Shown here one piece after another: positions 36,601 to 64,000 of a stretch of DNA of 64,000 bases (position 1 is the stretch's first letter; each line of letters begins with the position of its first letter). Origin of the DNA: Bugula neritina (taxonomy: Eukaryota; Bryozoa; Gymnolaemata; Cheilostomatida; Bugulidae). The position numbers and the translations under genes are program-made. The notes under the pieces are model-generated. The model saw nothing but the letters and a program-made list of their open reading frames with translations. It did no database searches and was not told the DNA's origin. The stretch covers positions 24,144,819 through 24,208,818 of the forward strand of contig OZ037768.1 of assembly GCA_964035545.1 (NCBI GenBank). The letters run 5' to 3'.

Positions 36601-39600
36601 CTATTTAGATTGAAATTCAAAGTCTATCATTTTAGTATTTTCTATTATTAGGTAAAATTATACTAGAATATATATAGTTTATTCAATGCAGCTTTTAGTG
36701 AATATTTCAATAGCAATGACTTGTTTTCAATGAAACTTATTTTATAAACTTGTTAAATATAAATCTAGATGTTAGATACATGAGAATATAGATGTGTTAG
36801 ATACACTAAATAGTGTACCATGTAATAGTGTACCATGTAATAGTGTGCTATGTAATAGTGTACTATGTAATAGTGTACTATGTAATAGTGTACTATGTAA
36901 TAGTGTACCATGTAATAGTGTGCTATGTAATAGTGTACCATGTAATAGTGTACTATGTAATAGTGTACTATGTAATAGTGTACTATGTAATAGTGTATCA
37001 TGTAATAGTGTACTATGTAATAGTGTATCATGTAATAGTGTGCTATGTAACAGTGTACTATGTAATAGTGTACTATGTAATAGTGTACCATGTAATAGTG
37101 TACCATGTAATAGTGTACCATGTAACAGTATACTATGTAACAGTGTACCATGTAATAGCGTACTATGTAATAGTGTACTATGTAATAGTGTACCATGTAA
37201 TAGTGTACTATGTAATAGTGTACTATGTAATAGTGTACCATGTAATAGTGTACTATGTAATAGTGTACTATGTAATAGTGTACTATGTAATAGTGTACTA
37301 TGTAATAGTGTACTATGTAATAGTGTACTATGTAATAGTGTACTATGTAATAGTGTACCATGTAATAGTGTACCATGTAATAGTATACTATGTAATAGTG
37401 TACTATGTAATAGTGTACTATGTAATAGTGTACCATGTAATAGTGTACCATGTAATAGTGTACTATGTAATAGTGTACTATGTAATAGTGTACCATGTAA
37501 TAGTGTACCATGTAATAGTGTACTATGTAATAGTGTACTATGTAATAGTGTACTATGTAATAGTGTACTATGTAATAGTGTACTATGTAATAGTGTATTA
37601 TGTAATAGTGTGCTATGTAATAGTGTACTATGTAATAGTGTACCATGTAATAGTGTACCATGTAATAGTGTACTATGTAATAGTGTACTATGTAATAGTG
37701 TACTGTGTAATAGTGTGCTATGTAATAGTGTACTATGTAATAGTGTACTATGCAATAGTGTACTATGTAATAGTGTACTATGTAACAGTGTACTATGTAA
37801 CAGTGTACTGTGTAATAGTGTACCATGTAATAGTGTACTATGTAATAGTGTACCATGTAATAGTGTACTATGTAATAGTGTACCATGTAATAGTGTACCA
37901 TGCAATGGTGTATTTATAGGAACAAAGCCACCACCACGAACATGGAATGAGTGGGACCTCGAAGGATTGCAAGGCAAAAGTGGAGAAAATTTTGATAGTA
38001 AACAGCTAGCAATAATGCCCGGTAACACGGAATTAGGTGGGCATTATACGGTTCATATTGGAGATTGAAAGCAATGGTATCTTTTATTTTGTCTATTGAT
38101 TTGTGTTTTCTAAATCAATATATATGAATTCTGCTTATTTTGCAAATAGGTTTAGTTAATAAATTCTATTTAGCTAAAAATTACCGATCTATAATTTAAA
38201 TCTCAAATCACTTTTAGGCTCAGTAAATTTATTTCAGACTTCACGTTTTATTATATTCATTTATTTATAAACTTAATGCAGAGGCACCAAAGTTCGACTT
38301 TGAAGGTCTCTACAAATCTATTGGGTCGTTGGAAACGCAAGTAGTCAATGGAGAGGTTGTGCCAGTCGTGTATGAAGAACTAACTAAACATAACTTACCT
38401 GTGAAGAGAATAGTGGAGGTATGTATAGTGCAAGTAACTGGTAGAGAGGGGTAAGTGTAGTGTAAGTAACTGGTAGAGAGAGTAGTAGAGGTAAGTGTAG
38501 TGTAAGTAACTAGTAGAGAGAGTAGTAGAGGTAAGTGTAGTATAAGTAACTAGTATAGAGAGTAGTAGAGGTAAGTGTAGTGTAAGTAATTAGTATAGAG
38601 AGTAGTAGAGGTAAGTATAGTGTAAGTAACTAGTAGAGAGAGTAGTGGAGGTAAGTGTAGTGTAAGTAACTGGTAGAGAGAGTAGTAGAGGTAAGTGTAG
38701 TGTAAGTAACTAGTAGAGAGAGTAGTAGGGGTAAGTGTAGTGTAAGTAACTAGTAGAGAGAGTAGTGGAGGTAAGTGTAGTGTAAGTAACTAGTAGAGAG
38801 AGTAGTGGAGGTAAGTATAGTGTAAGTAACTGGTAGAGAGAGTAGTAGAGGTAAGTGTAGTGTAAGTAACTAGTAGAGAGAATAGTAGAGGTAAGTGTAG
38901 TGTAAGTAACTAGTAGAGAGAGTAGTGGAGGTAAGTATAGTGTAAGTAACTGGTAGAGAGAGTAGTAGAGGTAAGTGTAGTGTAAGTAACTAGTAGAGAG
39001 AGTAGTAGAGGTAAGTGTAGTGTAAGTAACTAGTAGAGAGAGTAGTAGAGGTAAGTGTAGTGTAAGTAACTAGTAGAGAGAGTAGTAGAGGTAAGTGTAG
39101 TGCAAGTAACTAGTAGAGAGAGTAGTAGAGGTAAGTGTAATGTAAGTAACTAGTAGAGAGAGTAGTAGAGGTAAGTGTAGTGTAAGTAACTAGTAGAGAG
39201 AGTAGTAGAGGTAAGTGTAGTGTAAGTAACTAGTAGAGAGAGTAGTAGAGGTAAGTGTAGTGTAAGTAACTAGTAGAGAGAGTAGTAGAGGTAAGTGTAA
39301 TGTAAGTAACTAGTAGAGAGAGTAGTAGAGATGAGTGTAGTGTAAGTAACTAGTAGAGAGAGTAGTAGAGGTAAGTGTAATGTAAGTAACTAGTAGAGAG
39401 AGTAGTAGAGGTAAGTGTAGTGTAAGTAACTGGTAGAGAGAGTAGTAGAGGTAAGTGTAGTGTAAGTAACTAGTAGAGAGAGTAGTAGAGGTAAGTGTAG
39501 TGTAAGTAACTAGTAGAGAGAGTAGTAGAGGTAAGTGTAGTGTAAGTAACTAGTAGAGAGAGTAGTAGAGGTAAGTATAGTGCAAGTAACTAGTAGAGAG

Positions 39601-42600
39601 AGTAGTAGAGGTAAGTATATTGTAAGTAACTAGTAGAGAGAGTAGTAGAGGTAAGTGTAGTGTAAGTAACTAGTAGAGAGAGTAGTAGAGGTAAGTGTAG
39701 TGTAAGTAACTAGTATAGAGAGTAGTAGAGGTAAGTATATTGTAAGTAACTAGTAGAGAGAGTAGTAGAGATGAGTGTAGTGTAAGTAACTAGTAGAGAG
39801 AGTAGTAGAGGTAAGTATAGTGTAAGTAACTGGTAGAGAGGGGTAAGTGTAGTGTAAGTAACTAGTAGAGAGAATAGTAGAGGTAAGTGTAGTGCAAGTA
39901 CATCAACATAGAGGTATACAAGTATATATACACTGTATGTAGCAGAAGTTGATATTGGTTAGATATTGTATAAGAAAAAGCTTGTCTTTGCTGCAAAGTT
40001 TGCCTGCATTTGTTCAATTATAACAATGGCAGATGTTTTGTTCCTGTTTTGCTCATTTTTTATGTGGACTCTATTAGAATGATATACATCTACTTATTTC
40101 ATACTTTGTGTAATTATAGAGGGTTGATAGGCGGAATGGCAAGGTACAGAAAGTTAGATTTGCGTGTGAAGAGTTTGTAGTTTCGTAAAGTGAATAATAT
40201 TTTGGTTCTTGATTGAGGAAATAATATTTGGGTACATGGTTTGTGATAATAACCTGTGGTGTCTATAAAGAGATTATCTATAGATAGTATTTTATGTCAG
40301 ACCGAGTTTGTGATGTAACACAATGCTAACTTTAGTTGAGAAGTGTTCTTGTCTTTTGTCTAGTTTTATCTTATGTCACAAGACACATGTGACATGTGTC
40401 TTGTGACATTTAACATGTGATATGTCATGCATTAAATGTCACATGTGACTTTTCGCATGTGACATTTAACGTCAGTTGGCTAACGCAAGCTAATGAAAGT
40501 TTTCATTAACTATTAGATGATGCATTGATTGGATCTATTTCAACCAACTCATTTTATCAATTATGCAGAGGAAATCTCATTAAGAATTGCCTTTTCTTGA
40601 TGTCCTTGCTGGGGTATTTTTAGTACATTTTCTGCAGTACTATGAATAAATATTACTCTAAATGTCTACTTTATTAGATTATTCTCAACCCAGTCAAATG
40701 GCTCGAGACTAATGTATTAAAAGTTATGATGACTCATATTTCATTCTGACTCACAAGAACTCACATAACATTGTAGTCTTCCCTGGTTGGCCCTGGTCCA
40801 GAATATTCTAAGGCGGTATTCAACCTGTCCGGCCTCAGCCCTCTTATGGCCCACTTCCTGAACATGAAGCATTTACGTGACGCTGCCATAGTTGGCAGGA
40901 AGGTTCGGCGGACAGAGATCAAAGGTCAGCCTACCGGGGAAAGAACTTTCCAAGACATCATTGAAGAGAAGAGAGCATTGACTAAGTCTAATAAGGCACA
41001 TTACATCAAGTAAGCATACATTACATCAAGTAAGTACACATTACCCTAAGTAAGCATACATTATATTAAGTAAGTACACATTACATCAAGTAAGCATACA
41101 TTACATCAAGTAAGCACACTTCACAGATTGTGTAAAGAGACAGAAGCCGAGCTGAGTAAGATAGAGAAGAGAAGAGCCATGGTTACCAAGGAGATAAATA
41201 AACTGAAAGACAATACGGCAGCTTTTAAGCAGACGGGACTCGACGTGAAGTTTGTGGCTGATCGGCTGATGAGTAAAATAGTGAGTCCATTTGATTTCAC
41301 ATCCATGTTAGGTGCTGTGAAATGCTTGTTGTGTAGTTAGACACTATGTCTATTCTAATATTTTATCAAAACTGATAGCCAAGACACACTTTGCATATGC
41401 ATTTGAGTTTCTGTCATGGAAACCCATTTTTTCTGCTTGATTAATATCTTTAATCAGAAATGATTTTGCTAGTAGAAAATTTAATATAGTTTTCTCACCA
41501 TTAAAAGAACTTCAATGAGTAGACGACTGCATTATGTACACAGTTAGTCTACTCTATCACACAGATACTTCAAGGGAAAACAATCCCAATCCGTAACTTT
41601 ATTTCTCAACTTGACTCACTAAATTGAAACTTTTGTGCGTAGAATGGAGATCCTAAGAGAGTTCCGGAAAATCTGGTGACTGCCAACGGAGAGGTGAGTG
41701 TCGAACGGAGCTCTGACTCGGAAGAATCAGATGAAGAGTTGGAGGAGACTATAGCACTGGAGGTATAGTTTAGTATGATGTGCTATAGCACTGGAGGTAT
41801 AGTTTAGTATGACGTGCTATAGCACTGGAGGTATAGTTTAGTATGGCGTGCTATAGCACTAGATGTATTGTTTAGACTTTAGCATAATGTGCTATAGCAT
41901 AGATGTCAGAATGATTTGATAAAGTTTCATCAACTGCTGATATTTGAATTACATTATATCAGATGCTTTTACATGCTTATATCTATATTCTAGGAATAAG
42001 CTCGACATGTCAGGTAAGGTGGGTGTTGTGTGTGACACTAATAGCACTTCCTTCTCACTGCAAACTTCTCTACTTACAGCTTTGTTAGAAGTATATACTG
42101 CTATAAGCCTATTGCAGGCTTATATTTCTAACATATGATACTACTATCTCTCCGTATAATATTACTATCTCTCCGTATAATATTACTATCTCTCCGTATA
42201 ATATTACTATCCCTCCATATAATATTACTATCCCTAGGTATAATATTACTATCTCTCCGTATAATATTACTATCCCTCTGTATAATATTACTATCCCTCC
42301 GTATAATATTACTATCCCTCCGTATAATATTACTATCCCTCCGTATAATGTTACTATCTCTCCGTATAATATTACTATCCCTCCGTATAATATTACTATC
42401 TCTCCATGTTTAGAATAAATATTTTTAGACAGATTGTGGCGCTACTAAGCTTCAAGATGGCCGATTTCCACCGGCCACTGACATTACAGATAATATCTCT
42501 TTTACCAAAGACAGGGCTAAGTCACTGGAAAGAAAACGAGTGAAGCAACTGCAACAGGAAGTCAAATATCACTTTAGCCGTATCAACAGCCGATTGAATA

Positions 42601-42608
42601 TGCTGTAG
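33672..42608 (+). CDS. FAM227 family protein
   Basis: Proposed exons are 33672-33857, 34056-34161 (3' end uncertain), 34371-34526 (5' end could be 34377), 34640-34878, 36153-36356, 36462-36588, 37920-38021, 38282-38418, 40777-41009, 41127-41280, 41643-41762 and 42429-42608, giving about 647 aa. The family core is clear: LPGQLEAPQLLHRVTQAQDF, then TGFAKFWKKIFLSEASIAVV, FWWTFMKIFKP, FAALFFSIHPDTRDKIFKVY and LAQAIYMIFHDAFPESHRMF. These align with human FAM227A/B. The C-terminal part is charged and coiled-coil-like. The biochemical role is unknown to me; FAM227 genes are mostly linked to cilia or sperm. The exon 2/3 boundary is unresolved because the best phase needs a weak GTATCC donor. Five introns carry minisatellites. 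Confidence 0.85.
34927..35010 (+). other. Possible cassette exon in FAM227
   Basis: An 84-nt open segment after AAATAG and before GTAAAA encodes FKQNLQSFAGKLLEYRSNKG and eight more residues in phase 0. The family alignment runs directly from AQDF to TGFAKFW without it, so it is either an optional in-frame insert or a chance open stretch. Confidence 0.3.
36796..37912. repeat. 15-bp minisatellite in FAM227 intron (about 74 copies)
   Basis: The unit is TAATAGTGTACCATG with a common C/T variant (CTATG). It runs to the acceptor TGGTGTATTTATAG at 37919. The 15-bp period keeps at least four frames open for about 370 codons, producing spurious proteins such as SVPCN and LLHST repeats. Confidence 0.95.
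38407..39900. repeat. 40-bp minisatellite carrying the 5' splice site (about 37 copies)
   Basis: The exon at 38282-38418 ends AGAATAGTGGAG and its donor is GTATGT. The array unit is AGTAGTAGAG, GTAAGTGTAG, TGTAAGTAAC, TAGTAGAGAG. Each unit thus repeats the exon end and a better donor (GAG then GTAAGTG), plus a second GTAAGTA. About 74 GTAAGT motifs lie downstream of the real donor. Confidence 0.95.
40374..40408. repeat. Perfect 35-nt hairpin
   Basis: TGTCACAAGACACATG is followed by TGA and then by its exact reverse complement. Related CACATGTGAC words continue to about 40470. It lies in the same FAM227 intron as the 40-bp array. Confidence 0.85.
40999..41118. repeat. 20-bp array duplicating the FAM227 donor (about 6 copies)
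   Basis: The exon ends CACATTACATCAA and the donor is GTAAGC. The unit GTAAGCATACATTACATCAA is then repeated, so each copy ends with the last ten or so exon bases followed by GTAAG. Confidence 0.9.
41742..41870. repeat. 34-bp array duplicating the FAM227 donor (3 copies plus decay)
   Basis: The exon ends CTATAGCACTGGAG and the donor is GTATAG. The unit, ending CTATAGCACTGGAG and followed by GTATAGTTTAGTATG, is repeated three times and then fades. Confidence 0.9.
42130..42412. repeat. 21-bp minisatellite in the last FAM227 intron
   Basis: About 13 copies of a unit containing ATATTACTATCTCTCCGTAT lie shortly before the acceptor at 42428. Confidence 0.9.
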
Positions 42609-42919
42609 CGTTGGCTGTATTTTATTACAATATTGTATTATTTATTTTATTTATTATATTCTAGATTATATATTTTTTCAGCATATGCCTTTTATTCAAC
42701 TAGATGTCTATCAGCTACAATCTCAAGTATGATTTAAATTACAATTATTCACGAATTTTGCTCAATAAATTAATTATAAAATAAATTTCAATATAATCAT
42801 GGGAGATAAATCAGCATTATATTATACTAATATATTGGGGAGATAATTCAGCATTATATACTAATATAATGGGATAGCCATGAATTCTAACAAATATTCT
42901 GGGGAGGGGGAGAGAAGAT
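42609..42919. other. Convergent gap FAM227 / HACD3
   Basis: AT-rich 3' flanks. It has a local duplication of GGGAGATAA(A/T)TCAGCATTATAT at about 42801 and 42839. Confidence 0.4.
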
Positions 42920-45900
42920 TTAGTTGTGTTTCTTGTCTTTGCTAGTACTGCTACGAGCCCTGCTGCTGCTACCTAATTTCTTCCTTCTCAACGCTGCCAT
43001 ATGTAACATCATCTTAGTCAGCCCTTCAATGATAACATGATTGGTTCAGTTCACAAGTCAGTCACTATAATACCTTGCACCACTCCATGCACTAGTTGTG
43101 AGTATACTGTGTGTAGGAATAGTCTAATATAAAGGTGTGTACTTACCAATGGGAATGATGAGCAGGTGCATGTACATATACGTAGTGATGGAGATGCTGA
43201 AGTTGTAAGTGTTTGGGAGTTCCAGAGAGAACTTTCCAGAACTCTCATATAATGGTATACTCAGCCAAACAACCATCCCTACAGTATATAATATATAATG
43301 GTGTACTCAGCAATACAACCATCCCTACAGTATATAATATATAATGGTATACTCAGCCAAACAACCATCCCTACAGTATATAATATATAATGGTATACTC
43401 AGCCAAACAACCATCCCTACAGTATATAATATACATGAAAAAATATATCATTGAAAAAGAAGTTAAATCCCGGAGGACTTAAAAAATTGTTGAAGAGATT
43501 GAATACAAATGCCCCCCCCCCTCCCCGTAGACTTTCACTATTGCTAAAATTTTTCAGGAAATATTTGCTAAAACTTCATATTGGGAACTTTAAGTGGTAT
43601 AGGTCATCTGAAGGCACATGTATATACAGACTTAGTACTTACATTCACAGCCAGTTCCGAGAGGGTACAGAGGTATCCACATCGTGTATCTGAGCCAGGT
43701 GAGGAACTTGAGGCTAAGTCCCATGGAAGTCAGCATATAGAAAGGATGTCGGATGACATCAGCAAGCGACCAGAACAGAACCAGGTAACTCACGAAACTG
43801 GAGCCATGAATTCCCGGCTCATTCCAAATCACTACGAGTAGAATGAAGTTACGTCCACATGTCTAAAAGACAAACACCATGGAATAATACATTACTAGAT
43901 ATTTTAACTTCAGAAGGCTATAGGATTGATTTATACAGTTTTACTAAAACATGGGATATGATACATGATGCAAGCACTGTAATGTGCTCAGCTATTTTAT
44001 GAGAGTAGAAATAACAAAGTGGAATAGCTGTAATCTTACCGCCTACCTGTATAAGTGGGGAGACAAAACTGGACTTGACTAGTCCCACTATTGGGTGGAC
44101 AACTTCCAAGAATGAGAACAGCTGGGCTATTATAAGCACAGTGCCTACATCCTCAAAGGCGTTATAATCTGCAAAGTTAACAGATGAGAAACATTTTGCA
44201 GCCTGTAACCAAAACAAATTAATTAAAAGTTGATAATAAAATAAAAAAAGAAAAATTTCTAAAATGGCGTCTTGATGAAACTAAAATCCTGCTAACATTT
44301 GGACGAGATGATTTAATTACTAGAGTGATAAAATTCAATGAGTTATTTATAAATTCAATATTTATATGAACACAGCATGTGACTACATACAAATACTGTC
44401 AATTATAATTTTAAAGAAAAATACCAATCCAGTTTCTATGTCCCTTTGTCTAGCTCAGTAATAAAAATATATTCAAATATATTTTGCTATGTCCGTTGCT
44501 AATATCCCATGTATAAAAACAACAAGCATATGGTAAGCATATGGTAATTGGTAAGCATATGGTAAGCATATAGTAAGCATACAGTAAGCATACAGTAAGC
44601 ATATGGTAAGCATACAACAAGCATACAGTAAGCATACAGTAAGCATATATTCAGTGTAAACCTACCTTCAGTGGTGAAGATTCCAATCATCACTTTAACT
44701 AAGATAAAGGAATAAGCTATGAGATGAAAGAGGCTGTAGGAGAAGAGGTAATTCTTTTTAATATCTTCAATGGCTGCAGAGAACAAATATATGATGTCTT
44801 GTTATCAGAGAGAGTGCACCATCAAGTATTCACATCAAAATGCATTGAAAGAGAAACTCAAGTTTACACTTATTTTCCTTTTCAAATTTTAATAAAATAA
44901 ATTTATTAAAACTAGGTCCCATGAACAATTAGACAAAATTTGATGAAAAAACTGATTGAAACTCAAACTGTATAACCTATTTATATCCTAAAAGAAGTTT
45001 GTCTTTTTACTTACATTACATCTACACTGACATTACATCTACACTTACATTACATCTACACTTACATTACATCTACACTTACATTACATCTACACTTACA
45101 TTTAGGGCACTCCATAATAAAGTAGCTTTTATAAAACTTTATTAAAATATTTTAATGAGACTAGTTTCGCAACAAACGTATTGAAATTGTCATTGGTTGA
45201 AAAAAACACAACGCTAACTCAACATTCCCACCCACCCACCCCTAGTTTATAAAAAAAATTGAAACAAATTTATTTCTATGTCTCATATACTGACCCTTAT
45301 CTTGAGTCTCTGCCATTTCACTAGTCAGCTTATCTATATACTCTTTCTCCAGCTGTAACCACAAACTCAATATATAGATAGCAAATTATCAGTTTCGAAT
45401 CTTCAAATGAAGCTAATTAATTTCATATGCATACATGACAAATATAATTATTATATATATATATTAAACAATAATAATACACACAGCCTATCTGAGTATC
45501 ATATACAATCCATCAGATTATCATAGACCAACCCTTTTCTTTTCTCTCTCCATCTCTTCCTCGTCATCGGAGATGTCCATCTTATCAAAGTCTGGTCTGA
45601 TCCAGGCGTGCTTAGCAACGTCCTTCGTGAGTCTTGGCCAGGATTCATCTCGAGCAGTCGTGTCTCGCTTTGGAATGTCTAGTAACACTTCGGAACCGGT
45701 CACTCGAAGGCGTGATTTCTAGTGAATATTTACAGTCCATAATTTCTTATACTTTACAGTGTCAGGGGGGGGGGGATCCTGTTGAAAGCTTTTAGCATTG
45801 TATGTGATGTGAGAATGAATTATTCATTCAAAAATACAGATTGTAGTGCATTTGATAGCTTAAAAATTCTTACCTCTGGAGAAATATGTCTGTAAGGCTT

Positions 45901-48323: not shown

Positions 48324-51300
48324 ATGTTTTTGAGATTTTCAAAAGGAGATCCAGGAGCCCTGAAGCCTGTGTTGGCGGCTGAACTCGCGTCAAAATCTCT
48401 GCAATTGGACTCACTTGAGGGTACGTCTATAGGAAGTATTATATAGAGTTGTGAGGGGGTGTGTCTATAGGAAGTATTATATAGAGTGGTGAGGGGGTGT
48501 GTCTATAGGAAGTATTATATAGAGTGGTGAGGGGGTGTGTCTATAGGAAGTATTATATAGAGTGGTGAGGGGGTGTGTCTATAGGAAGTATTATATAGAG
48601 TGGTGAGGGGGTGTGTCTATAGGAAGTATTATATAGAGTGGTGAGGGGGCGTGTCTAAATTTAATAAATATTTAGCTTTCACCTGCAACTATTAGTTTGT
48701 TTTATGAAATAAGTCTTTCAGAAAATCTTGAAATATTTTCATTTCCATTAAATTTTCCAGCTAACACTTTATTTCTCTTATTTCAGCCAACTTCCGCCCT
48801 GCACTTCTCTGTGATGGTGAAGATTTGGAGTTGTTCTCTATGAATGCTGCCAGTTGGTGAGTGAAGCATGACCCCAGCTGACCCCCAGCTGCCTGTTTTT
48901 GTATCCTTTGACTGCCACGTATTCATTTCATACACACAGCTACTCCTTCACCTTTCAGCCCAAATCACACATTTGAATGTCTTAATCCTACAAATTAAAG
49001 CAGCATTTACTAAACCTAAAATATTTCTGAACTAGGTGACTGGAAATTCAGCCTTTATGTTACATCTTATATATGTCTTTGTTTTCTAATTACCTACCAA
49101 TACAGCACCACTCCTTTCTATATCTATTTTACACTATGACCGTTACTTTCAGCTACCTCCTCGGAGCAAAGATTTCACCTGAGTTAGACCAGTGGCTGGA
49201 GTGGGAGGCGACTGAACTCTCGGTGCGTAATACTCTACGCTTTTTATTTATTAAAGAAGTATTTTACCATCAACTATATAATAAAATAAAGTTTGAATTA
49301 GTTCATATTTATAGAGAACCTGCACCCAGCCTTCATATTCTGTGTTGGTGGAACTGTTCTATAGTCAGAGCAAGTGATGCGATGAAATTACTTTGTGATG
49401 ACTCATAAACTGAGTAATTATGACTCATCACTTCTGCAGACGTTATTCCTGTCACTCTCTTATTGTGTTACTTCTGGACATGTTGCAGCCACTGATTCAC
49501 CTTCACGTGGTGAGCTGTTTGAACAAGAAGGAAGATGCGGCTGTCAAAGCTAAGCTGCTGGGTTGTCTCACTCAGATGGAGAACTCACTCATCACTCTGG
49601 ACCAGTCTCTCCATTCAGTGCTCTGGTGTACCCTCTTCTCTCTGGTCACCAGCAAATCTCTGCCAGGTAGAGTGTTATCTGTAGCTGCTGTTGTCATCTA
49701 AAATATTTAGAGTGAATAGAGTTCAAGCATTCAATAGACTATTGTTAGAGTAGTAGAGTGAGTTGTGTGAGGAAAGTTATCATATCTTACAGAATCAGCC
49801 AATTACCTGTGACTCAGTGTACTGCAGGAGCTCTTTGTAGAGATCAAGTGAATGTGTGTTGTAGAGCTGGAGACATCATTTGTCAAGGTCAGCAAGTGGT
49901 ACAAGGAGTTGGCAGCACGAAAGGAGTATGTTAAAGCTGTCAGCGATGTCTTTACATCAGATCCTCTTTCAGTACTGAAGGTATGAGTATAGAGAGTATA
50001 TATAGGGAGTATATATATATAGTATATAGAGAGTATATATAGAGAGTATATATAGCTAGTGTATATATAGAGAGTATATATAGAGTATCTATAGAGTATA
50101 TGGCACCTGGAGCCCATGACAGTGGTGACAGTATCTGCATAGATAATGAAGACCTTGCCAGCGTCAATAAGTTTAAATATCTTGGGTCTACAGTGATGTG
50201 CAACAACAAGATGGATGAAGAGATTCATACAAGGATGTCCAATGCTTCAATCTCATTCGGCAGACTAAAGACCAAAGTGTAGTACAATAAGGATCTGTCA
50301 TTCAAGACCAAGTGTACAGAGCCATTGTCCTGTCCTCTCTGCTCTATGGAGCGGAGGCCTGGCCTGTATACAGGATAGCCGCTCACAAATTCAACACCTA
50401 TATGATGAGACATCTACGCCAGATCTTGAACGTGAAGTGGTGGGATTTCATCTCGAATGAGGAGACTCTAGCACAGGCAAATCTACCCAGCATGTATGAA
50501 CTACTCATTCAAAAAAACCTGAGATGGGCTGGTCATGTGCATCGAATGGATAACTCTAGATTACCTAAACAAATTCTCTATTCACAACTGAAAGAAGGCA
50601 CCCGTGGTGTTGGCAGGCCGCGACTGAGATTCAAAGATACCGTTAAACGCAATCTAAAAGACCTGAAGATCCCTATTGGTAGCTGGCAATCTCTCAGCAA
50701 AGACAGATGTAAATGGAGGACCATGATTCACCGGAAGTCATCTTCGGACACGAAGGACAGCTAATGAATGAATGAATATATATATATATAGAGAGTATGT
50801 AGAGAGTATATATAGAGAGAGTATATAGAGAGTATAGAGAGTATATATAGAGAGTATAGAGAGTATATATAGAGAGTATATAGAGAGTATATATAGAGTA
50901 TCTATAGAGTATATATATGTAGAGAGTATATAGAGAGTATATAGAGAGAGTATATAGAGAGTATATATAGAGAGTATATAGAGAGTATATATAGAGAGTA
51001 TATAGAGAGAGTATATAGAGAGTATATATAGAGAGTATATAGAGAGTATATATAGAGAGTATATATAGAGTATATATAGAGAGTATATAGAGAGAGTATA
51101 TATAGAGTATATAGAGAGTATATATAGGGAGTATATATAGCGAGAGTATATAGAGAGAGTATATAGAGAGAGTATATATAGAGAGTATATATAGAGTATA
51201 TATAGAGAGTATATAGAGAGAGTATATATAGAGAGTATATATAGAGTATCTATAGAGTATATAGAGAGTATATATAGAGAGTATATATAGAGAGAGTATA

Positions 51301-54300
51301 TATTTTCCAGGCTACTATAGTAAAACTGCCTCTCCCCGACTACTGCCTATCCAATGCATCCACCCCTGAGCCAGTGGTGTCTGGGCCGGCAGCAGGGGAT
51401 ATAGAGACTGCCTACCGTACTTGGTGCACTAAAGAGCAGCGCCCCCTGTCCTCTCGACAACATCCTGTGTGAGTTTTCCTAGTGATGTCATATAACTGCT
51501 GGAATACTGTGTCAGCTGTATAGACGGATCAGCATATTGACACTTACTGTTCACTTGTTGAGTAAATAGCACAGAGTATTATTAACACACCATGTAACCT
51601 GCAGACTGTACTTTCAGACTACCGGATGCAAGTAAGCGTAACGTGCTCATTACCAGTGCCTTGCCGTACGTCAACAACGTGCCTCACCTCGGTAATATCA
51701 TCGGCTGCGTCCTGTCTGCAGACGTCTTCTCGAGATTCTGTAGACTCCGGGGGTACAACTCCTTATATATCTGTGGTAAGGGGGTACAACTCCTTATATA
51801 TCTGTGGTAAGGGGGTACAACTCCTTATATATCTGTGGTAAGGGGGTACAACTCCTTATATATTTGTGGTAAGGGGGTACAACTCCTTATATATCTGTGG
51901 TAAGGGAGTACAACTCCTTATATATCTGTGGTAAGGGGGTACAACTCCTTATATATCTGTGCTAAGGGGGTACAACTCCTTATATATCTGTGGTAAGGGG
52001 GTACAACTCCTTATATATCTGTGCTAAGGGGGTACAACTCCTTATATATCTGTGGTAAGGGGGTACAACTCCTTATATATCTGTGGTAAGGGGGGTACAA
52101 CTCCTTATATATCTGTGCTAAGGGGGTACAACTCCTTTTATATCTGTGGTAAGGGGGTACAACTCCTTACATATCTGTGGTAAGGGGGTACAACTCCTTA
52201 TATATCTGTGCTAAGGGGAATACAAACCCCTTATATATCTGTGGTAAGGGGATACGCTACTCTCTCACTTGTACTCTGTCACAGGCACAGATGAGTACGG
52301 TACAGCCACTGAGACTAAGGCCGTACAGGAGGGGCTAACTCCCGAGGAGATCTGTGAGAAGTATTACCGACTCCACTCTGACATATACAAGTGGTTCAAC
52401 ATTGACTTTGATCACTTTGGGCGGACAACTACTTCTCACCAAACTAAGTAGGCGTATATTATCTGTCATATATATTACTAGTCATATATATGTATAATAT
52501 ATATCGTTTGTCATATGTGTGTAATATATACTATCTTTCATATAATGTTTGATGTACTAGATTCTTAGTCAATGATGAGTTGCTTTACTTTGATTTATTT
52601 TGTTCGTTGAATATTTTTACTTTTGTTTTGTTTTTCAATTTTACAACGTTGCTGTCTTCTTGTTCCTATTGAACTTTATTGTTTCACAGCCGCCATTTTG
52701 TATTTCAGAATATCCCAGGATATATTCTGGAAGGTGTATAAGAATGGTTACATCAGTAAAGACTCCGTCGAACAGTTGAGATGTGAGAAGTGTGAGAGGT
52801 AAGAGCTGTGTTACCATGAAATACTGTCACTATGAAATAACCTTTGTCATGTGACACTGGTGTTGCCATACAGTGCTGTTCCTATGTAGTAGTGTATGCT
52901 AATGTTGTATCCTTACAGGTTTCTAGCTGACAGGTTCGTAGAGGGCACGTGCCCTCTGTGTGGGTACGAGGATGCCCGTGGAGATCAATGTGATAAGTGT
53001 GGTAAACTGATAAACGCCGTAGAGCTCATTAACCCCAAGTGTAAGCTGTGTAAATCATCGCCGGTGGTGAAGAGCTCAAATCATCTCTTCCTTGATCTCT
53101 CCACGGTTGGTTGGAATATAGTATCTCGAGTTTACTAGCAGGCTATGCTGTATCTTAGGGTATCTCCTGTAGACGTCCCCTGCTTTGTTCACTGTCTCAC
53201 ATCAGTTGGTTCTAAGACTAGCTTAATCTCGAATAATATACTGTAGTAATAATTAAGGTGATATAATGATTTGATTACAGTATACTGGCATTAGTATTAT
53301 ACTTTGTGACTGTCTAAATTGAGAAGTTTCAGTAAGTTAATAAAACTACATAGTACAATCATTAGTGGGACAGAGTGGGTAGAGAGTGAGACTGAGTGAT
53401 TAGAGAGTGATACTGAGTGAGTAGAGAGTGAGACTGAGTGAGTAGAGAGTGAGACTGAGTGAGTAGAGAGTGAGACTGAGTGAGTAGAGAGTGAGACTGA
53501 GTGAGTAGAGAGGGAGACTGAGTGAGTAGAGAGTGAGACTGAGTGAGTAGAGAGTGAGTAGAGAGTGAAACTGAAGAATTGTTAACAAATACTGAAATCT
53601 GTTTGTTTAGCTGACGGACAAGCTATCAGAGTACCTGGCTGTGGAATGGGAAAGAGGTACGTGGTCCCACAATGCCAAGGTTATCACTAAGGCATGGCTA
53701 AGAGATGGACTGAAGCCGCGGTGTATCACCCGAGACCTGAAATGGGGGACTCCTGTGCCACTAGAGGGTTTCACAGACAAAGTGTTCTATGTGTGGTTTG
53801 ATGCTCCTATTGGCTACATCTCCATCACTGCCAGCTATACTGACCAATGGGAGAAGTGGTGGAAGAATCCTCAACAGGTACCCGTTTAGCCCTGCACTTC
53901 CATCGTCCAAGTAACTAACTACTAACTAACTAGCTAACTAACTAACTACTATATACTAACTACTAGCTTACTAACTAACTAACTAACAAACTAACTACTA
54001 GCTAATTAACTAATTAACTACTATATACTAACTACTAGCTAACTAACTAATAACTAGTTAACTAACTAACTAGCTAACTAGAGGGTTATATAGTAAAGTT
54101 TGTTCAAAGTTACAGCTTGTAGTTTGCTAGTAACATAGAAAAGAAAACTCCTATCTCCATGGTTGGTTAAACATATCAACATGTTACAACATAGTAAATG
54201 TTATCATATAATCTGCTTTTAAAATTTAATAGTTGCAAAAGTCTTATATTAAAAATATTGTCCTCTATAAAGAAAGTGTGGAATACGTCTGCTTATTGAC

Positions 54301-57300
54301 AGGTTGAGACGTATAACTTCATGGCAAAGGACAACGTGCCCTTTCACAGTGTCGTGTTTCCCTGCACTCAGCTCGGAGCTGATGATAACTACAGCATAGT
54401 CAATCACCTCTGTGCCACAGGTGCGTTCTGCAGAGCTTCTGCCTTCTGCACAGTTTCTGCGTTCTGCAGAGCTTCTGCCTTCTGCACAGTTTCTGTGTTC
54501 ATAATCCTCAGGTGTCAAACTGGAAATTGTGTTTATAACACTCTACTTCAATTTCTATTATTCTAGTATTATAACTTCTAGTGTTTTATACCTGATTAAA
54601 ACTATATAATAATATATATTTCATAGTATAGGGAATGCTGTTATATGACATTTTAATATGTTGAATACATTGTGTAACATTTGTTGAATATTAAGAAGTT
54701 ATAAATTTACTAATAAGATTAGTTTCTTGTAAAAATGTTGAAAGTTTTTACTCAGAAATTTGCACCTCATATTCACTGCATAGCCTGCTGCCGCCACTGC
54801 TGCCTTATATACTGTAACATTTCAGAGTACCTCAACTATGAAAACGACAAATTCAGCAAGAGTCGAGGTGTCGGTGTGTTCGGTAACGACGCTCAATCAA
54901 CCGGGATACCGGCGGACATCTGGCGGTTCTACCTGCTGTACATGCGGCCTGAGTCGCAGGACAGCACCTTCAGCTGGGACGACTTCCTGTTGAAGAACAA
55001 CAGCGAACTGCTCAGCAATCTCGGCAACTTTGTCAACCGGGCGCTCAAGTTCATAGCTGACTTCTACGGCGGAGTTATCCCTGAGATGCAGGTGACTGAA
55101 GAGGACAAGGTACTGTTGGCGCAAGTGACGGCTGAACTGGAGTCGTACGTCGACAAACTAGAAGCCGTGAGTGGATAATATTGTATACAGTCTACAGTGT
55201 ATAGTGTATAGTACACGCCTGAGACTTGAACTATATAAATAATGCCATATGATTGGTTGGATTTTAAGAAAGTACAGTTGGCTATGTAATCATGTAGGCT
55301 TTAGTTCCCCGAATGAGAGCTGATCTAACACTACCTGCATTAGGAGTATTTATTCATAGTAATTGCAGACGTGTCTATTAGTTGCAGACGTGTCTATTAC
55401 TTGCAGACGTGTCTATTAGTTGCAGACGTGTCTATTAGTTGCAGACGTGTCTATTACTTGCAGACGTATCTATTAGTTGCAGACGTGTCTATTAGTTGCA
55501 GACGTGTCTATTAGTTGCAGACGTGTCTATTAGTTGCAGACGTGTCTATTAGTTGCAGACGTGTCTATTACTTGCAGACGTGTCTATTAGTTGCAGACGT
55601 GTCTACTAGTTGCAGGCGTGTCTATTAGTTGCAGACGTGTCTATTAGTTGCAGACGTGTCTATTAGTTGCAGGCGTGTCTATTACTTGCAGACGTGTCTA
55701 TTAGTTGCAGGCGTGTCTATTACTTGCAGACGTGTCTATTAGTTGCAGACGTGTCTATTAGTTGCAGACGTGTCTATTAGTTGCAGACGTGTCTATTAGT
55801 TGCAGACGTCACACTGAATTGTGTTTCAGGCTCAGCTGAGAGACGGTATCTGGCACATGCTCAGTATCTCTAGACTAGGCAACCAGTACCTCCAGTCTAC
55901 AATGCCGTGGAAGTTGTACAAGAGTGCTGACGCCGCCGACAAGGCCAGGGCCGCCTCTGTAGTTGGTGAGTTGTCCTCTCTCACGCTGACTGAGGTATGA
56001 CTGCCTTGTCAGCAACTGGCCAAGCTGTAGTAAACTGTGATGTAGTAGTTGTCTCTCCTGTATTACAGGTATCGCTGCTAACATAGCCTGTCTTCTCTCA
56101 CTACTGATACACCCCTACATGCCAGAGGTCAGTCAGACTATGAGGGACCAGCTCAATATTCAGTCGCTATGGCAACTGGAAAAGTCCTTCACCTGTAACC
56201 TCAAACCTGGTCATAAAATCGGAAAGGTAGCTCACTATTTTATGTAATATAATAGTAACTGTAGATGTTATCTAATATGAAAAGTTCTTAACATAATATA
56301 ACTTTGCTTTAAAAAATTAAAATTGCAATTTCTTAATTTTATTGGGTTCAGCTTTTCACTGCCTTTTTTTAATAAGTTTCTAGTATCTTTTGGAGAATTT
56401 CTTAAGAAAGTAATTTTTTAAATCATCGCTAGACCCCACCCCTTTTCTGTCACTACTTCCCGTCACTACTTCCTGCCACTACTTCCTGTATGAAGATGGT
56501 GTGTTCTCTGTTTCTAGCCCTCGCCTCTCTTTGCCAAGATCGAACCTGAACTGATAAGTGAGTTGAAGAAAAGATTCTCTGGTACACAGGCTACAAGAGA
56601 AGCAGACAGCCAGGTGAAGGTCACAGCAGATCCTGCAGAGGCTAAGCGACTAGCTGCCGAAGTTGAGAGTCAGGTAAGATAACTCTATGAGTAGCACACT
56701 AGTAGCACATGAGTAGTACATGAGTAGTACATGAGTAGCACATGAGTAGTACATGAGTAGCACACGAGTAGCACACGAGTAGCACACGAGTAGCACACGA
56801 GTAGCACACGAGTAGCACACGAGTAGCACACGAGTAGCACATGAGTAGCACACTAGTAGCACATAAGTAGTACATGAGTAGCACATGAGTAGCACACTAG
56901 TAGCACATAAGTAGTACATGAGTAGCACATGAGTAGCACATGAGTAGCACATGAGTATCAGATGAGTAGTACATGAGTAGCACATGAGTAGCACATGAGT
57001 ATCAGATGAGTAGTACATGAGTAGCACATGAGTAGCACATGAGTAGTACATGAGTAGCACATGAGTAGCACATGAGTAATACATTAAACTTTGAGAAATA
57101 TAAAAGCTTTAGTGTCTTTTATATTTCTTGGATTTTTACGTAAAAGCTGTGCGGTCATGTGTGGTTGTTTTAGTAAGTAAAGTTGTCATCTCTTGACTTC
57201 TATCTGTTATACTGAAGGCGTCTAAAGTGAGAGAGCTCAAGGCGAGCAAGGCTGAGAAGTCTAAGGTAGATGAAGAGGTCGTGTTGCTACTCCAACTGAA

Positions 57301-57683: not shown

Positions 57684-58791
57684 TCACCTCTTCTCCTGCC
57701 ATACAACTGTGGATTCTCAGACTATAGGGATATCCCCAGCAGACGTCTGCAGCTAGTAACTATGGTAACAGTGTATCACAAAGGATGGTATAACATTACA
57801 AATAGATCTTCTAGTGACTTGCAATAGTTTATGATTATATAATCTTTTGTTTGGCTTTCCCTGTAGATGTTTACAGCTTGCTGGCATTTTACTGTTAGAT
57901 AAATTAATCTGCCATAGTGATACCTGTAGTAATCAACCTGGAATATACTTCGCGAATAGTTATTTTTCAGGTAATGCTTAACTAGGAAATTATTGTTTAA
58001 CTTATTAATATGGTTGTTTAGTTTCTATTTTCTTTTCATGGACTGCATTGACTACAATCTGTATGGAAATACTTTCAGCTCTCCCCCAAAGTTGCAATTT
58101 AAGATAATAGAATGTATATCTTGATGTAATCATTATATTGCATAATGTATTATATAGTAATATATAATATTATGCAATATGCTATTATATATGGTAATAC
58201 GTTGCATAATATTATATAACAAAGTATGTGAAATCATTAACTAGGAATCAAATAATTTTATGTTTCACTCACTGAGATTTGTTATGCTGTTCAACAGTAT
58301 ATTTTCAATTGTTTAATGACCTTAAATATTTTTGAAACAATAAATTAGTTCCTTTTAAATCTTTCATGCTTTTAGTTCAACAAGAAAGTTGTTGAGTAAG
58401 ATACAACTTCACCAGTCATACATTTACCAAATAAATACTTGAGACTTTTAAAATAATTGCAGCTTTTTTTAGTAGAGATGAATGATTATTGCAGCATTTG
58501 CTTGTGTCAACATTATGACTAGTATAAACTACTGCACTGTGTATTATAAGAGGTTGACACATGAACTCCCATATGGATACTAATACTCTGATATATAAAT
58601 ACTGACAATAGAGCTCTATGCTATGTCTGTAAGAGTTATTTCCCCAGTTTGTTGACCTGTTGACACAACTCCTGAATTCTAATAATTCAACGCTATTACA
58701 TAGCACATCATGTTGATTGTAATACAATCAGTTACATGTGCAGCAAAGTTTCTCCTTTTCATTGTTGGACTGTGCGTTTTCATTCTACAAC
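57684..58791. other. Intergenic gap MARS1 / Ser-Pro-rich gene
   Basis: This holds the MARS1 3' UTR and the presumed promoter of the next same-strand gene. AT-rich, with a small dyad region at about 58130-58220 (TATATAATATTATGC words). No gene seen. Confidence 0.4.
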
Positions 58792-61700
58792 ATGGCGTCC
58801 TCAAGTCCTACAAAGAGCAACCTAGAACATTGTTTCACAACTCTGGCTAATCGCCAATCGAGATACAAGGGGAAATCAAACATGGCGCAATCATCTCAGG
58901 CGCTTGACGAACCGGCCACCAAAATCTCGCAGTTTCTGGGCAGTCAGCCTACCGAGCAACAACTCTCGAAAACTCTTGACCAGTACAAAGCCTTTGTCCT
59001 AGAGTTGGCCACGAGGTCATGTGACACCCGACCCGCTGAACTCGCGTGGAAACCGGGTGCACAGGCTAAACGACAAGCCAAGCAGAAGTTCAAAGATGTG
59101 AAAGCTCAGCAGCCAATTATAGGGAAGGTTCTGGAATCATATCGAATGGCCGTGAGCTGTTTAGAAGACGCCCTCAGCCGTCAGAAGCAGAAGAATAACC
59201 AGAGGCTAGCCAACTTCAAAGAAGTGGCTAAAGTTGTGTCCACTAATATGGGCATTATGTTTGAGGAAGTTTGTGGCGTCAAAAAGGTGGGAATCGTTCA
59301 CAAGTATCGGTAAAATAGTGGAAGAGCTGTGAAGAAATTACTTTGTATAGTATACTCATAATATGTGTAGTATTTTAGGAGTTGTTTTCTCTACTCTGTT
59401 TTAGCAGAAGGACAGACGACCCTTACCAGCAATTCGACTGCGTCAGCATCTAGAAAAGTAAGTGACTAGAAAGATTAGACCAAACATTATAAAACTTTTC
59501 TCTGTCACCTTGTGCACTCGGTTTAAAAGTAGTCCCCGTTTTCACATATTTCATATTCTAAGATGGTTATATATAGTTTACACTCATGATTTAAGCTGCT
59601 GGGTTACATAGTGATAGGTTATATTTTTCTCTTCATGCACACAACTTGCTGAAGACAAATTTTTAAACCTTTTGGCCTACAGAAACCGTAGCCCCACATC
59701 CAGCACATCTATGTTCAGTCACACGGGTGGACAGTCGGCCCCTCAACCCTCCCCCGTCTTTGATAGAGAAAGTCGGGAAGGGAGGGAGGCTAGACGCAGC
59801 GCTAGAGAGATGGGTCTACAGCAGCAGGATAACACAGAGTCTGGTATATCCGCATTTCCTGTCGCCTCCTGGATCTCTCAACTCTCACAAGAAAGTCATT
59901 CGCGGTTAGACAGGAAACTTTATACGTTTCTTTTACTCTTGAAACAAGTATCTGAAAATTATATGTTTTTTGAGTTATTTTTTTTCAGTTTTTGATAAAC
60001 CTAAATTTCTTCCATAACAAAGTTTTATGTTTTCAAGACGTTTAGTTTGATATTTGAGCTGGATACGCTTGAGTTTGATAGTTTTATTTGCTTAGTTGTG
60101 GTAAGTATTATCTTTCGACTTTTCTGGCTGAAATTCAAGCAAAAATTTCCTAATAATATTTAATTGGTATGTTGAGCAGAATTTCAAAATTGGTTTGCTG
60201 GTTTCTCTGTTAGAAATATTGAAGACACAAGTCCACATACATCTGTGTCACAGGAAGTTATAAATGCTAATAGTAATGGATCTGCTAAATCTCGGTGAGA
60301 CAACTCCTCATTTCTTGTATTCTGTCAGATTTCCGGTTTAACACATCTGAATGATTGACTCTCACTATGAAAATATTAGCACTTCATAAGTTAGTAGAAT
60401 ATTCTAGATCTAATGTAGTGAACATGTAATAACGGAAATAATTTGAGTTGCTAATCTTTCAATCTTATTCATGAGAAACGACATGCAAAATGCTCAATAC
60501 CGAACTGCTTCACAACCTGGCCGAGGCAGTGATCACGATATACTACATGCTGGATCCACCCCTAGAACTAGGTCTGTTCCCTCTTCTCCTCGTCATGACA
60601 CATCCACTCCTAGCAAGAAGAGTGCTTCTAAAACCTTTTCAGTATGTTATCATATATTTCTTTATATACCTCAGTATGTTATCATATATCCCTACATATA
60701 TCTCAGTATGTTATCATATATCCCTTCATATATCTCAGTATGTTATCATATATCCCTTCATATATCTCAGTATGTTATCATATATCCCTTCATATATCTC
60801 AGTATGTTATCATATATCCCTTCATATATCTCAGTATGTTATCATATATCCCTTCATATATCTCAGTATGTTATCATATATCCCTTCATATATCTCAGTA
60901 TGTTATCATATATCCCTTCATATATCTCAGTATGTTATCATATATCCCTTCATATATCTCAGTATGTTATCATATATTTCTTTATAGCCACATGCCTTCA
61001 TTTCCACATGGTTTTTTTCTATAATTTCTACAGACTACACATTCTACTCTACTCTTTCTACACTCTCTATCTACTCTCTATCTATTCTCTCTACACTCTT
61101 TCTACACACTTTGTTTATTTTTATCTCTTGTTCTATTATTAGCTGCACCGGCCCAGGTCTAGCCCGGCCAGCCAACAGCAACACTATGTACCAGACTGGC
61201 AGGTGTGTATGTCCAACTTCCTCCCACAATGCACTTGGTGGTTCATAGAATATATTACCACAAGTTTATAGAATATATCACAAGTTTATAGAATATATTA
61301 CTATAAGTTTATAGAATATATCACAAGTTTATAGAATATATTACCACAAGTTTATAGAATATATCACAAGTTTATAGAATATATCATAAGTTTATAGAAT
61401 ATATTACCACAAGTTTATAGAATATATCATAAGTTTATAGAGTATATCGTCTCTTCCAGTCTCCACCGAATCAGTTCCAGGATCTTCCATTTACGGTGAA
61501 CGAAGCTGTAGTTCATAAGACCTCAACAGCTCATTGGGTGAGCATTACTAACAACAAATGTGATTGGCTAAATGTTTACTTTGTAGTACTAACAATGAAT
61601 ATCATTGGCTAAAAGTATATAACAGCAAATATGATTGGCTGAAGACATACTCTGTTATATCAAGTAATAATCAGCTGTTTTATTTCACATGTTGGATGAG

Positions 61701-64000
61701 CAGCAGCAAGCTGCAGTGACAGGCAGACCTGAGTCTAAACAAGCCCTCATTTCGGGGACGCCTCCTGTGCCTTCCATACTTCGGTCTTCTGTAGCTAAGC
61801 AGAAGGTTAGTTCTATTAGTATTAAATTATTCGTCCAATCATTGCTGTTCATTTATTCACTGCATGTCGTTACTTAGTATGTAGCACTTGTAGACACCTG
61901 CCATACCTGACAGAAATTACCATGTAGGTATATGCTAGTGTATACTTCTTATACTTGTTACAACCTGAAACACAGAGTAACCTTGACATTGTATTAGCAA
62001 TTAGTAATTACTATTTATATTGTAGATTAGTATATACTATTTATATTGTAGATTAGTGTATACTATTTATATTGTAGATTAGTATATACTATTTATATTG
62101 TAGATTAGTATATACTATTTATATTGTAGATTAGTGTATACTATTTATATTGTAGATTAGTATATACTATTTATATTGTAGATTAGTGTATACTATTTAT
62201 ATTGTAGATTAGTGTATACTATTTATATTGTAGATTAGTATATACTATTTATATTGTAGATTAGTATATACTATTTATATTGTAGATTAGTATATACTAT
62301 TTATATTGTAGATTAGTATATACTATTTATATTGTAGATTAGTGTATACTATTTATATTGTAGATTAGTGTATACTATTTATATTGTAGATTAGTGTATA
62401 CTATTTATATTGTAGATTAGTGTATACTATGTATATTGTAGATTAGTATATACTATTTATATTGTAGATTAGTATATACTATTTATATTGTAGATTAGTG
62501 TATACTATTTATATTGTAGAGCACCAACTTTGTGGAAGTTCGCAAACCTGTATCCACATATGAAGGTAATTTTTACCTCTTTCCTTCATTTTCTAACTTT
62601 AGATTGGATTCATGGTTCAAACATTTCAGAGTTCAAATAAGTGAAACACATTTTTCCTAATTTAAATTATTTTGTTACCCATTGAGTGTTGATTTTAAAA
62701 TTTATTTAATTTTTCAAGTGTTGAAAATTTTATCTATGCATGCTTGTGGAGTGTGTGGCGTGTATAGTGTGTCTGTGTGTGGAGTTATGTCCCCATGATT
62801 TATTCCCTCCGTCTGCAGCCATTGGACCCCCTCAGAGTCCGTCTTCTCCAATCAGAGCAGAGCAAAAGATCTCCTTCGCCGTCCCCACTCCGAGCCAACC
62901 CTCCACCGAGGAGAACTCTTCTAGCTGCGACACTTCTCAACCCCCCTGGGTGGCGACTACACTGACGTCTACAGATGTAGCTTCGTCAATGAGGTCTCCT
63001 TGTCTTCACAGGTAACTTGTACAGTGTTTGTGAAGAGATCTATTAGATGTACTGTGTTTGTGAAGAGATCTATTAGATGTACTGCGTTTGGTCTCTCAGA
63101 GAGTTTCTATTTGTGTTATTCTGTATAACCCGAGGAATTTTGTATAGCCTGAGAATCACTAATGGCTTAGACTTCATACACATTCACGGGAAAACATTCT
63201 ATGATGTAGAATTTTTAATCATGTTTAATGCACTTAGGGAAACTTTTGTCATTCTATCTCGTGGAATCAGTACTGTGGTACCTCTGTGATGATTTAAAGT
63301 AATTTGATCTGCCGCAGACGTGATGATGTAATACTTTACATTACAGTGATACATCAGAGTCTAGTTGCAGCAGTTCTGAGGAAGACACGCCCACCAGTCA
63401 GGTCAAGGCCAGCAGCTCTGCCAGTGGTATCAATATGAGCATTCAGTTGTGCTCTCCTGGGAAAGTCCTTCGTCAGGACCCTTGTGGGGTGTCCCAGGGG
63501 GGTAACAATTCACCTGACCTGGCCCATGGCTCACCTGGCCTGGCCCATGGCTCACCTGGCCTGGTCCATGGCTCACCCCGTAGAGCCTACAGCCCGGCCC
63601 ACAAGTCCCAGAGTCCGACTCATGAAGCCAATGTCCAGAGAGGGATGCAGTATTGTGTTCCCCTGGATAACCACGGTGCCCCCTCGTGGGCAGACGACAG
63701 AAAAGGTTTCCAGACTTCGCCAACAGAGAACTACCCCAGGAGTTGTCGTGTCCTGTCACCGTCCAGGAATCTGGTGGGTTGAGTATTACTATAGTTTGCT
63801 GGATGCCATTTACATGAACCTTGACTTTTGAAATATTAGTATATGCTATCACTACTGTGTTACAGAGTAATGGTGGGACAGGCAGTAAGAATATGTCACC
63901 TTCACCAAGACATCCCCAACCACCTGCTCCACCTGCCACCGGTCTCTTATCTGCTCCCAGTGTCAGCTATTCAGCGTACCAGCAGGTGCTTGAGGAGAAT
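58792..64000 (+). CDS. Large Ser/Pro-rich protein of unknown family (5' part, open at right edge)
   Basis: Exons seen are 58792-59286, 59405-59457, 59683-59904, 60214-60294, 60476-60641, 61143-61202, 61460-61537, about 61701-61805, 62520-62565, 62819-63011, 63347-63773 and 63866 onward. Phases agree. I do not recognise it. The first about 165 residues (MASSSPTKSNLEHCFTTLAN...) are helical and charged, with a lysine-rich stretch (AKRQAKQKFKDVKAQQ) and no membrane segment. After that it is low-complexity, rich in Ser, Pro, Gln and Arg-Ser (RTRSVPSSPRHDTSTPSKKS), as in scaffold or cytoskeleton-associated proteins with many Ser-Pro phosphosites. The exon at 63347 encodes three HGSPGLA-type heptads. 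The acceptor at 60475 (TTCATGAG) and the one at 61700 are weak. Confidence 0.7.
60640..60978. repeat. 32-bp array carrying the donor, Ser/Pro gene intron 5 (about 10 copies)
   Basis: The exon ends CCTTTTCA with donor GTATGTTATC. The unit starts CAGTATGTTATCATATATCC and ends TTCATATATCT, so each copy repeats CAGTATGT. That word contains an AG usable as acceptor and a GTATGT usable as donor. The 32-bp period rotates the frame and gives three long spurious open frames. Confidence 0.9.
61255..61448. repeat. ACAAGTTTATAGAATATAT repeats, Ser/Pro gene intron 6
   Basis: About nine copies of a 19-23-bp unit lie shortly before the acceptor at 61459. Confidence 0.9.
61995..62519. repeat. 26-bp array ending in the 3' splice site, Ser/Pro gene intron 8 (about 20 copies)
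   Basis: The unit contains ATACTATTTATATTGTAG, and the final copy's TTGTAG is the actual acceptor of the exon beginning AGCACCAAC at 62520. All about 20 copies therefore carry the same acceptor sequence (ATTTATATTGTAG). Confidence 0.95.
63010..63083. repeat. 35-bp duplication at donor of the exon ending 63011
   Basis: TGTACTGTGTTTGTGAAGAG followed by ATCTATTAGA occurs twice right after the donor GTAACTTGTACAGTG, with a partial third copy. Confidence 0.75.

Follow-up and report, generated by a model that had tools for sequence, protein, structure and literature searches.

A 64,000-nucleotide stretch of the genome of the bryozoan Bugula neritina (hereafter the window; C4:24144819-24208818), located on a 24.8-Mb contig some 586 kb short of its end, in a genome of 215.8 Mb, was analysed for intronic tandem arrays whose repeat unit contains an exon-intron junction. 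Such structures are known from amphioxus as mirages, where 5' or 3' exon-intron boundaries are described as repeated in tandem in the manner of a minisatellite, with AG/GT present in many copies, in genes whose mRNA is reported to be normal (PMC3087553 and PMC3902484). Six genes with 49 introns were modelled in the window from reading frame, plus homology where present.

The MARS1 model had 17 introns, and its draft was aligned to human MetRS 5gl7 at 900 bits. HACD3, on the minus strand (6 introns), and the AMDHD1-like gene (7 introns) carried the Pfam families PTPLA and Amidohydro_1, respectively. The closest homolog of the FAM227-like gene (7 introns) was found in Watersipora (P0001, 61%); the remaining models were a coiled-coil gene with 11 introns and a claudin-like gene with one. 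No family was returned by a Pfam search of pieces of the FAM227-like and coiled-coil genes, and a homolog search with the latter gave no match, which is a weak test as the draft query included one X and one wrong-frame exon. The names FAM227, AMDHD1 and claudin-like, and the choice of HACD3 over other HACDs, are our own assumption. The five models besides HACD3 read through without internal stops, and in HACD3 the donor of intron 3 was shifted by one base. HACD3 was identical to B. neritina PTPLAD1 (P0003) in 307 of 329 aligned columns (93%), with 11 of the remaining 22 columns falling in one gap, and showed 54% identity to Watersipora subatra, which places the animal near Bugula among the bryozoans. 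Its intron 4 acceptor was modelled too early (P0003 is without 11 residues there), and the array in that intron lies 16 bp from the donor. A draft genome of B. neritina was published with a size of 214 Mb and with genes predicted using transcriptome hints (main text of PMC7576161).

Five arrays were clear junction copies, with 13–32 bp of coding sequence in each unit, located in introns 3, 4 and 6 of the FAM227-like gene, intron 6 of HACD3 and intron 7 of MARS1 (Table 1). The plainest case was MARS1 intron 7, where human MetRS 5gl7 aligned without gaps over the junction of the spliced protein. The exon join of HACD3 intron 6 (GTGCE/WMVVW) was gap-free and exact in P0003, i.e. at the outermost acceptor. 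FAM227-like intron 4 consisted in the bulk of its length of the array, and its exon join HYIK/LCKETE matched HYAK/LCKETE of Watersipora P0001 without gaps (compared by eye). In the exon before FAM227-like intron 6 the match to P0001 (by eye) extended as far as DEELE, and the donor was directly followed by an in-frame TAG; the acceptor (42000, 13-bp exon) was placed by frame only. The junction of intron 3 was covered by no homolog. As the introns repeat coding sequence that is conserved between human and this animal, copying is shown to have run from the exon edge into the intron.

Table 1. Tandem arrays that copy, touch, adjoin or fill introns in the window.
Feature	Positions	Strand	Gene and intron	Unit and copies	Remarks
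Donor mirage	38405..39900	+	FAM227-like intron 3 (38419-40776)	40 bp, ~37 copies	Donor 38419; 14 bp exon; junction by reading frame only
Donor mirage	40997..41119	+	FAM227-like intron 4 (41010-41126, 117 bp)	20 bp, ~6 copies	Donor 41010; 13 bp exon
Donor mirage	41749..41875	+	FAM227-like intron 6	34 bp, 3.7 copies	Donor 41763; 14 bp exon
Acceptor mirage	43247..43433	-	HACD3 intron 6	46 bp, 4 copies	Acceptor 43279; 32 bp exon; upstream of true acceptor
Donor mirage	51749..52255	+	MARS1 intron 7 (51776-52284)	31 bp, ~16 copies	Donor 51776; 27 bp exon (GYNSLYICG)
Array from 3 bp before donor	60639..60977	+	Coiled-coil gene intron 5 (60642-61142)	32 bp, 10.6 copies	Junction by frame only
Array to 1 bp past acceptor	62000..62520	+	Coiled-coil gene intron 8 (61806-62519)	26 bp, 20 copies	Junction by frame only
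Array from 4 bp inside intron	48425..48657	+	MARS1 intron 1	38 bp, 6 copies	
Near-whole-intron array	29135..29803	+	Intron 29126-29804	21 bp, 32 copies	9 bp after donor, 1 bp before acceptor; collapses to 31 bp
Two TATAGAGAG-type arrays	49981..51310	+	MARS1 intron 5		Outer ends within 7 bp (donor side) and 8 bp (acceptor side)
Edge array	16024..16462	+	AMDHD1-like intron 2	21 bp, 21 copies	6 bp inside intron
Edge array	54422..54500	+	MARS1 intron 12		1 bp inside intron
Edge array	56687..57078	+	MARS1 intron 16	11 bp, 36 copies	13 bp inside intron

A preceding sequence-only reading of the window had proposed that the unit includes the exon-intron boundary in at least seven introns of four unrelated genes. 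All the arrays it named were found, and the four genes (FAM227-like, HACD3, MARS1 and the coiled-coil gene) were borne out; beyond the five clear cases the overlap was marginal, amounting to 3 bp at 60639 and 1 bp at 62000, with the array at 48425 starting inside the intron, and a total of seven introns is reached only by including such marginal cases. Extension of the latter by 6 bp to 48419 raised the score by only 1, and an exon part is not established. Five further arrays had been described as starting or ending close to a donor or acceptor, and four of these (16024, 29135, 54422 and 56687) were indeed intronic and 1–13 bp from a junction; the fifth, 11515, fell outside every gene model built.

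Junction overlap was compared with chance by cutting each array to one unit and drawing a random position for a seed of unit length among those touching the intron, the relevant intron length being that before array growth and not the one observed. In the window, 7 of 28 arrays overlapped a junction against 7.29 expected (P 0.66), or against 5.41 and 4.27 with collapsed introns floored at 92 and 182 bp (P 0.28 and 0.11). The 28 arrays derived from 30 intronic rows, with 16538 dropped and 52486 merged into 52455, and period and limits were set by hand for the compound arrays 21597, 40997, 49988, 53912, 54422, 61043 and 61241. Twenty of them neither copied nor touched a junction, 48425 being counted as touching. 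The outside comparison covered 280 kb of the same genome, made up of 200 kb from C1, 20 kb from C2, 20 kb from C3 and 40 kb of C4 on the downstream side of the window; there, two of 39 arrays (71173 and 74038) overlapped a junction against 5.72 expected, or 5.11 and 4.26 with the two floors. The lowest P for an excess of overlap under any of the nulls was 0.11. Junction-copying arrays are real and not in excess in the stretches tested. The sequence-only reading had itself proposed a comparison with shuffled positions, and its claim that random placement would not give this pattern failed that comparison as far as overlap is concerned, the counts being at or under expectation.

Junctions outside the window were taken from our own small hidden Markov model gene finder, for which the window models served as training data and which was applied to sequence with the arrays collapsed. 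With the settings used, it recovered 46 of the 49 donors and 39 of the 49 acceptors that it had been trained on. The 39 arrays were selected from 85 rows, with 71173 and 73188 set manually after reading as the gene finder had misread them. Two-copy arrays (7 downstream, 15 in C1 and 2 in C3), exonic or intergenic arrays, 11 weak, microsatellite-like or very-long-intron C1 rows and C3 8562 were left out; among the rows left out, C1 144336 (20 bp), C1 163205 (10 bp, 2.3 copies) and 79678 (10 bp, in one mode only) lay near a junction. When all 85 rows were taken in either collapse mode, four overlaps were obtained (71173, 74038, C1 192229 and C3 18696).

The inner copies of the splice sites were compared with the rest of the unit in nine junction arrays (the eight of the window and 74038). 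The splice dinucleotide was changed in 7 of 200 copy positions and other unit positions in 103 of 3393 (P 0.67), which gives no indication of selection in either direction on the inner splice sites of these arrays. Intact GT or AG was present in 36 of 38, 6 of 6, 4 of 4, 4 of 4 and 12 of 16 copies of the five clear mirages (38405, 40997, 41749, 43247 and 51749, respectively). Modelled use of the first inner copy shifted the frame in eight of eight cases, and in six of them a stop codon followed within the insert or the subsequent exon. Unit length was divisible by three in none of the nine junction arrays and in 20 of 57 other arrays (P 0.048, post hoc), a comparison that includes three window arrays of uncertain period. 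Over the scored stretch, inner sites were identical to the outer one for 10 of 10 donors in coiled-coil intron 5, 3 of 3 acceptors in HACD3 intron 6 and 18 of 19 acceptors in coiled-coil intron 8, so that, provided the protein is made as modelled, the choice must depend on position or surroundings and not on the site itself.

We consider it probable that the arrays described here are mirages that arose in short introns of this Bugula-like bryozoan through local tandem duplication of the ordinary kind, that duplicates spanning a junction are tolerated as long as splicing uses the exon-proximal copy, and that an array at times takes over the whole intron. A minisatellite would be born by duplication of 10–50 bp in or at the edge of a short intron, through a presumed duplication enzymology, and a duplicated segment that happened to span a junction would place a donor or acceptor in every copy. 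The change would be nearly neutral while the splicing machinery uses the exon-adjacent copy, as we infer for the RNA of these genes, and the wrong choice would mostly give a frameshifted message. The array may then grow and shrink, and the unique intron sequence may be lost, which would leave some introns as splice signals plus array. This account is favoured because overlap is at chance, inner sites show no sign of selection and inner-copy use shifts the frame, because the junctions in MARS1, HACD3 and FAM227-like intron 4 are backed by human, B. neritina and Watersipora proteins, and because the same structures in amphioxus are said to leave the mRNA normal. The junction-copying arrays are most likely neutral, and of the three explanations offered by the sequence-only reading, simple tolerance of junction duplicates gave the best fit.

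Weighing against this account are the crowding of arrays at intron edges, the small size of some introns once collapsed, and the source of the outside junctions. Within 20 bp of a junction lay 14 of 21 non-overlapping arrays in the window against 5.68 expected (P <1e-5), and outside it 9 of 35 with 6.10 expected (P 0.08 under the plain null; P 0.047 and 0.009 when collapsed introns are floored at 92 and 182 bp); within 30 bp the outside count was 14 of 35 against 8.01 (P 0.002). Two paralogous copies, presumably fibrinogen-like, were dropped from the outside edge count. As the 20-bp threshold was suggested by the window itself, its test lies in the outside figures alone, and 30 bp was one of several thresholds tried. 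Uniform placement does not explain the edge excess, and in this respect the claim of non-random placement stood in the window and, more weakly, outside. As for the gene finder, the outside count was made in the 'first' collapse mode, which recovered four of the seven window overlaps; the other mode recovered five, and six were seen in at least one of the two. The outside overlap count may in consequence be a little low, without this creating an excess, as even 4 of 39 would be below the 5.72 expected.

The crowding could reflect a transcription- or splicing-linked duplication process that favours intron ends, seeding arrays within about 30 bp of donors and acceptors and sometimes across them, a milder form of the seeding first proposed in which arrays crowd the first or last 20–30 bp. 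The edge excess speaks for it, as do many one-sided cases (e.g. with the donor 6 bp and the acceptor 3050 bp away), for which shrinkage of the flanks is no explanation. We nevertheless regard it as rather unlikely, given that overlap itself is at or below expectation, that the 20-bp threshold came from the window and at this distance the plain null was not exceeded clearly outside it, and that the outside junctions depend on the gene finder. Nor do the edge arrays appear as worn junction copies, an idea that was tried and rejected: the flanks of 19 such arrays showed no likeness to the unit (mean rank p 0.57, none below 0.1). The same test, applied as a positive control to the five clear junction copies after their array start had been shifted in by one copy, gave p 0.020 in all of them, the minimum for the 49-junction pool; being null in the edge arrays and positive in true copies, it argues that the edge arrays are not recognisably worn mirages. 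A wider proposal, to which we give only a small chance, would have minisatellite birth or growth in this bryozoan lineage focused on the first and last ~30 bp of introns, equally at donors and acceptors, by a process tied to transcription or splicing, with arrays taking over whole introns and keeping them above the minimum spliceable length, and with junction copies persisting only where the unit is not divisible by three since wrong-copy messages would be cleared by nonsense-mediated decay.

Five of 25 array-bearing window introns collapsed to 14, 31, 33, 54 and 69 bp (the first four from 117, 679, 509 and 250 bp), below the shortest of the 24 array-free introns, all of which were at least 92 bp (P 0.05). 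Plain insertion of an array into a normal intron is insufficient to account for this, and collapse below the normal minimum implies that in some introns the array replaced former content or made the intron, the takeover of intron sequence being the alternative that we infer. Of 161 array-free introns predicted in C1 and downstream of the window, 157 were at least 80 bp, and the four at 10–34 bp were taken for gene-finder errors; there, none of 49 array-bearing predicted introns collapsed below 80 bp, which speaks against whole-intron arrays being common. One intron at 73188-73269 (window scale; L026 9188-9269), missed by the gene finder, was apparently array from end to end (GTAAG to TTACAG) and collapsed below 80 bp by manual reading.

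That new introns arose by the mirage route appears improbable. In its favour, the collapsed lengths of 14, 31, 33 and 54 bp are too short for introns that existed beforehand, the unit is mostly exon in FAM227-like intron 4 and MARS1 intron 7, and introns built from exonic tandem copies are reported in fission yeast, as cited in PMC4974935. Against this, a further frame, P0002, showed non-matching sequence exactly where FAM227-like intron 4 ends before LCKETE (by eye). P0002 is apparently an unspliced frame from another source, and its break at this point makes the boundary of intron 4 look older than the array.

That the multiple splice sites are functional, serving alternative isoforms or splicing control, is very improbable. 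Most inner copies are intact (e.g. 20 of 20 in a further array), and the inner GAGGTAAGT of FAM227-like intron 3, which occurs 32 times, scored 7.66 against 6.62 for the outer GAGGTATGT. However, the dinucleotides vary like the rest of the unit, and splicing at the first inner copy would cause a frameshift in every modelled case; the functional role suggested earlier thus found no support. An assembly artefact with collapsed or inflated repeats is hardly credible: tandem arrays are hard to assemble and copy numbers may be off, but substitutions distinguish the copies and the units carry exon edges confirmed by the proteins of other species.

The sequence-only reading had regarded the arrays as belonging to no standard feature type, which does not hold, since amphioxus mirages share this anatomy. 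They have been described in Adh3 and the globins BflGb6/9 (PMC3087553) and in TnC and PGBD5 (PMC3902484), and the original Adh mirage paper, Canestro et al. 2002, is known here through these two sources. In both animals the tandem unit spans the boundary, 5' and 3' types occur and GT/AG is found in many copies; unlike those of amphioxus, the bryozoan arrays reach ~37 copies, three mirage introns occur in one gene, and the arrays were tested against random placement. The idea that introns can arise by tandem duplication is long established and has a few worked cases, among them ATP2A1, potato RdRp and fission yeast 24-bp exonic repeats (PMC4974935). As in that model (Rogers), exon-edge tandem copies supply splice sites, with introns lying across repeats (PMC4974935); in contrast to it, no new intron position is shown in the window, and one all-array intron seems old from the comparison of P0002 by eye. 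Unit type and copy numbers are comparable to those of ordinary intronic minisatellites, or variable number tandem repeats, from which the mirage subset differs by holding coding sequence and a junction. With regard to introner-type dispersal, a genome search with region 43200-43460 only, which skips simple repeats, gave one match, the region itself.

No report of bryozoan mirages was found in searches of the openly licensed literature, of which only some named bryozoans; the main text of PMC7576161, as available, has no mention of 'tandem', 'satellite' or 'intron', and the available portion of PMC10675955 none of 'tandem'. This is a known structure in a new phylum, mirages being otherwise reported only from lancelets in the openly licensed literature found. 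Their presence in a second phylum suggests that mirages form generally as a side effect of tandem duplication in short introns, and they offer natural experiments on how splice sites are chosen. Introns made wholly of array prompt the question of how introns come to be replaced or newly formed, and these, together with the over-full intron edges, are the parts of most remaining interest.

Minisatellite density, counted from arrays with at least three copies and at least 80% match, was uneven, with 3.9 per 10 kb in the window, 0.65 in C1 (200 kb), 0 in C2 (20 kb) and 3.0 in C3 (20 kb). The stretch of C4 downstream of the window (L026-L029) was also rich in arrays and contained a long coiled-coil gene and genes that we take to be hedgehog-like, proline-dehydrogenase-like and fibrinogen-like, the last in tandem and sharing intron arrays. 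Between the two TATAGAGAG arrays of MARS1 intron 5 lies a fragment (50043-50761) that is presumably reverse-transcriptase-like, judged from its look. An in-frame 21-bp coding repeat was observed within an exon of the coiled-coil gene (63510-63577). Identical open frames on opposite strands at 5458-7045 and 9580-11041 form a long-armed inverted repeat, which is probably a mobile element.

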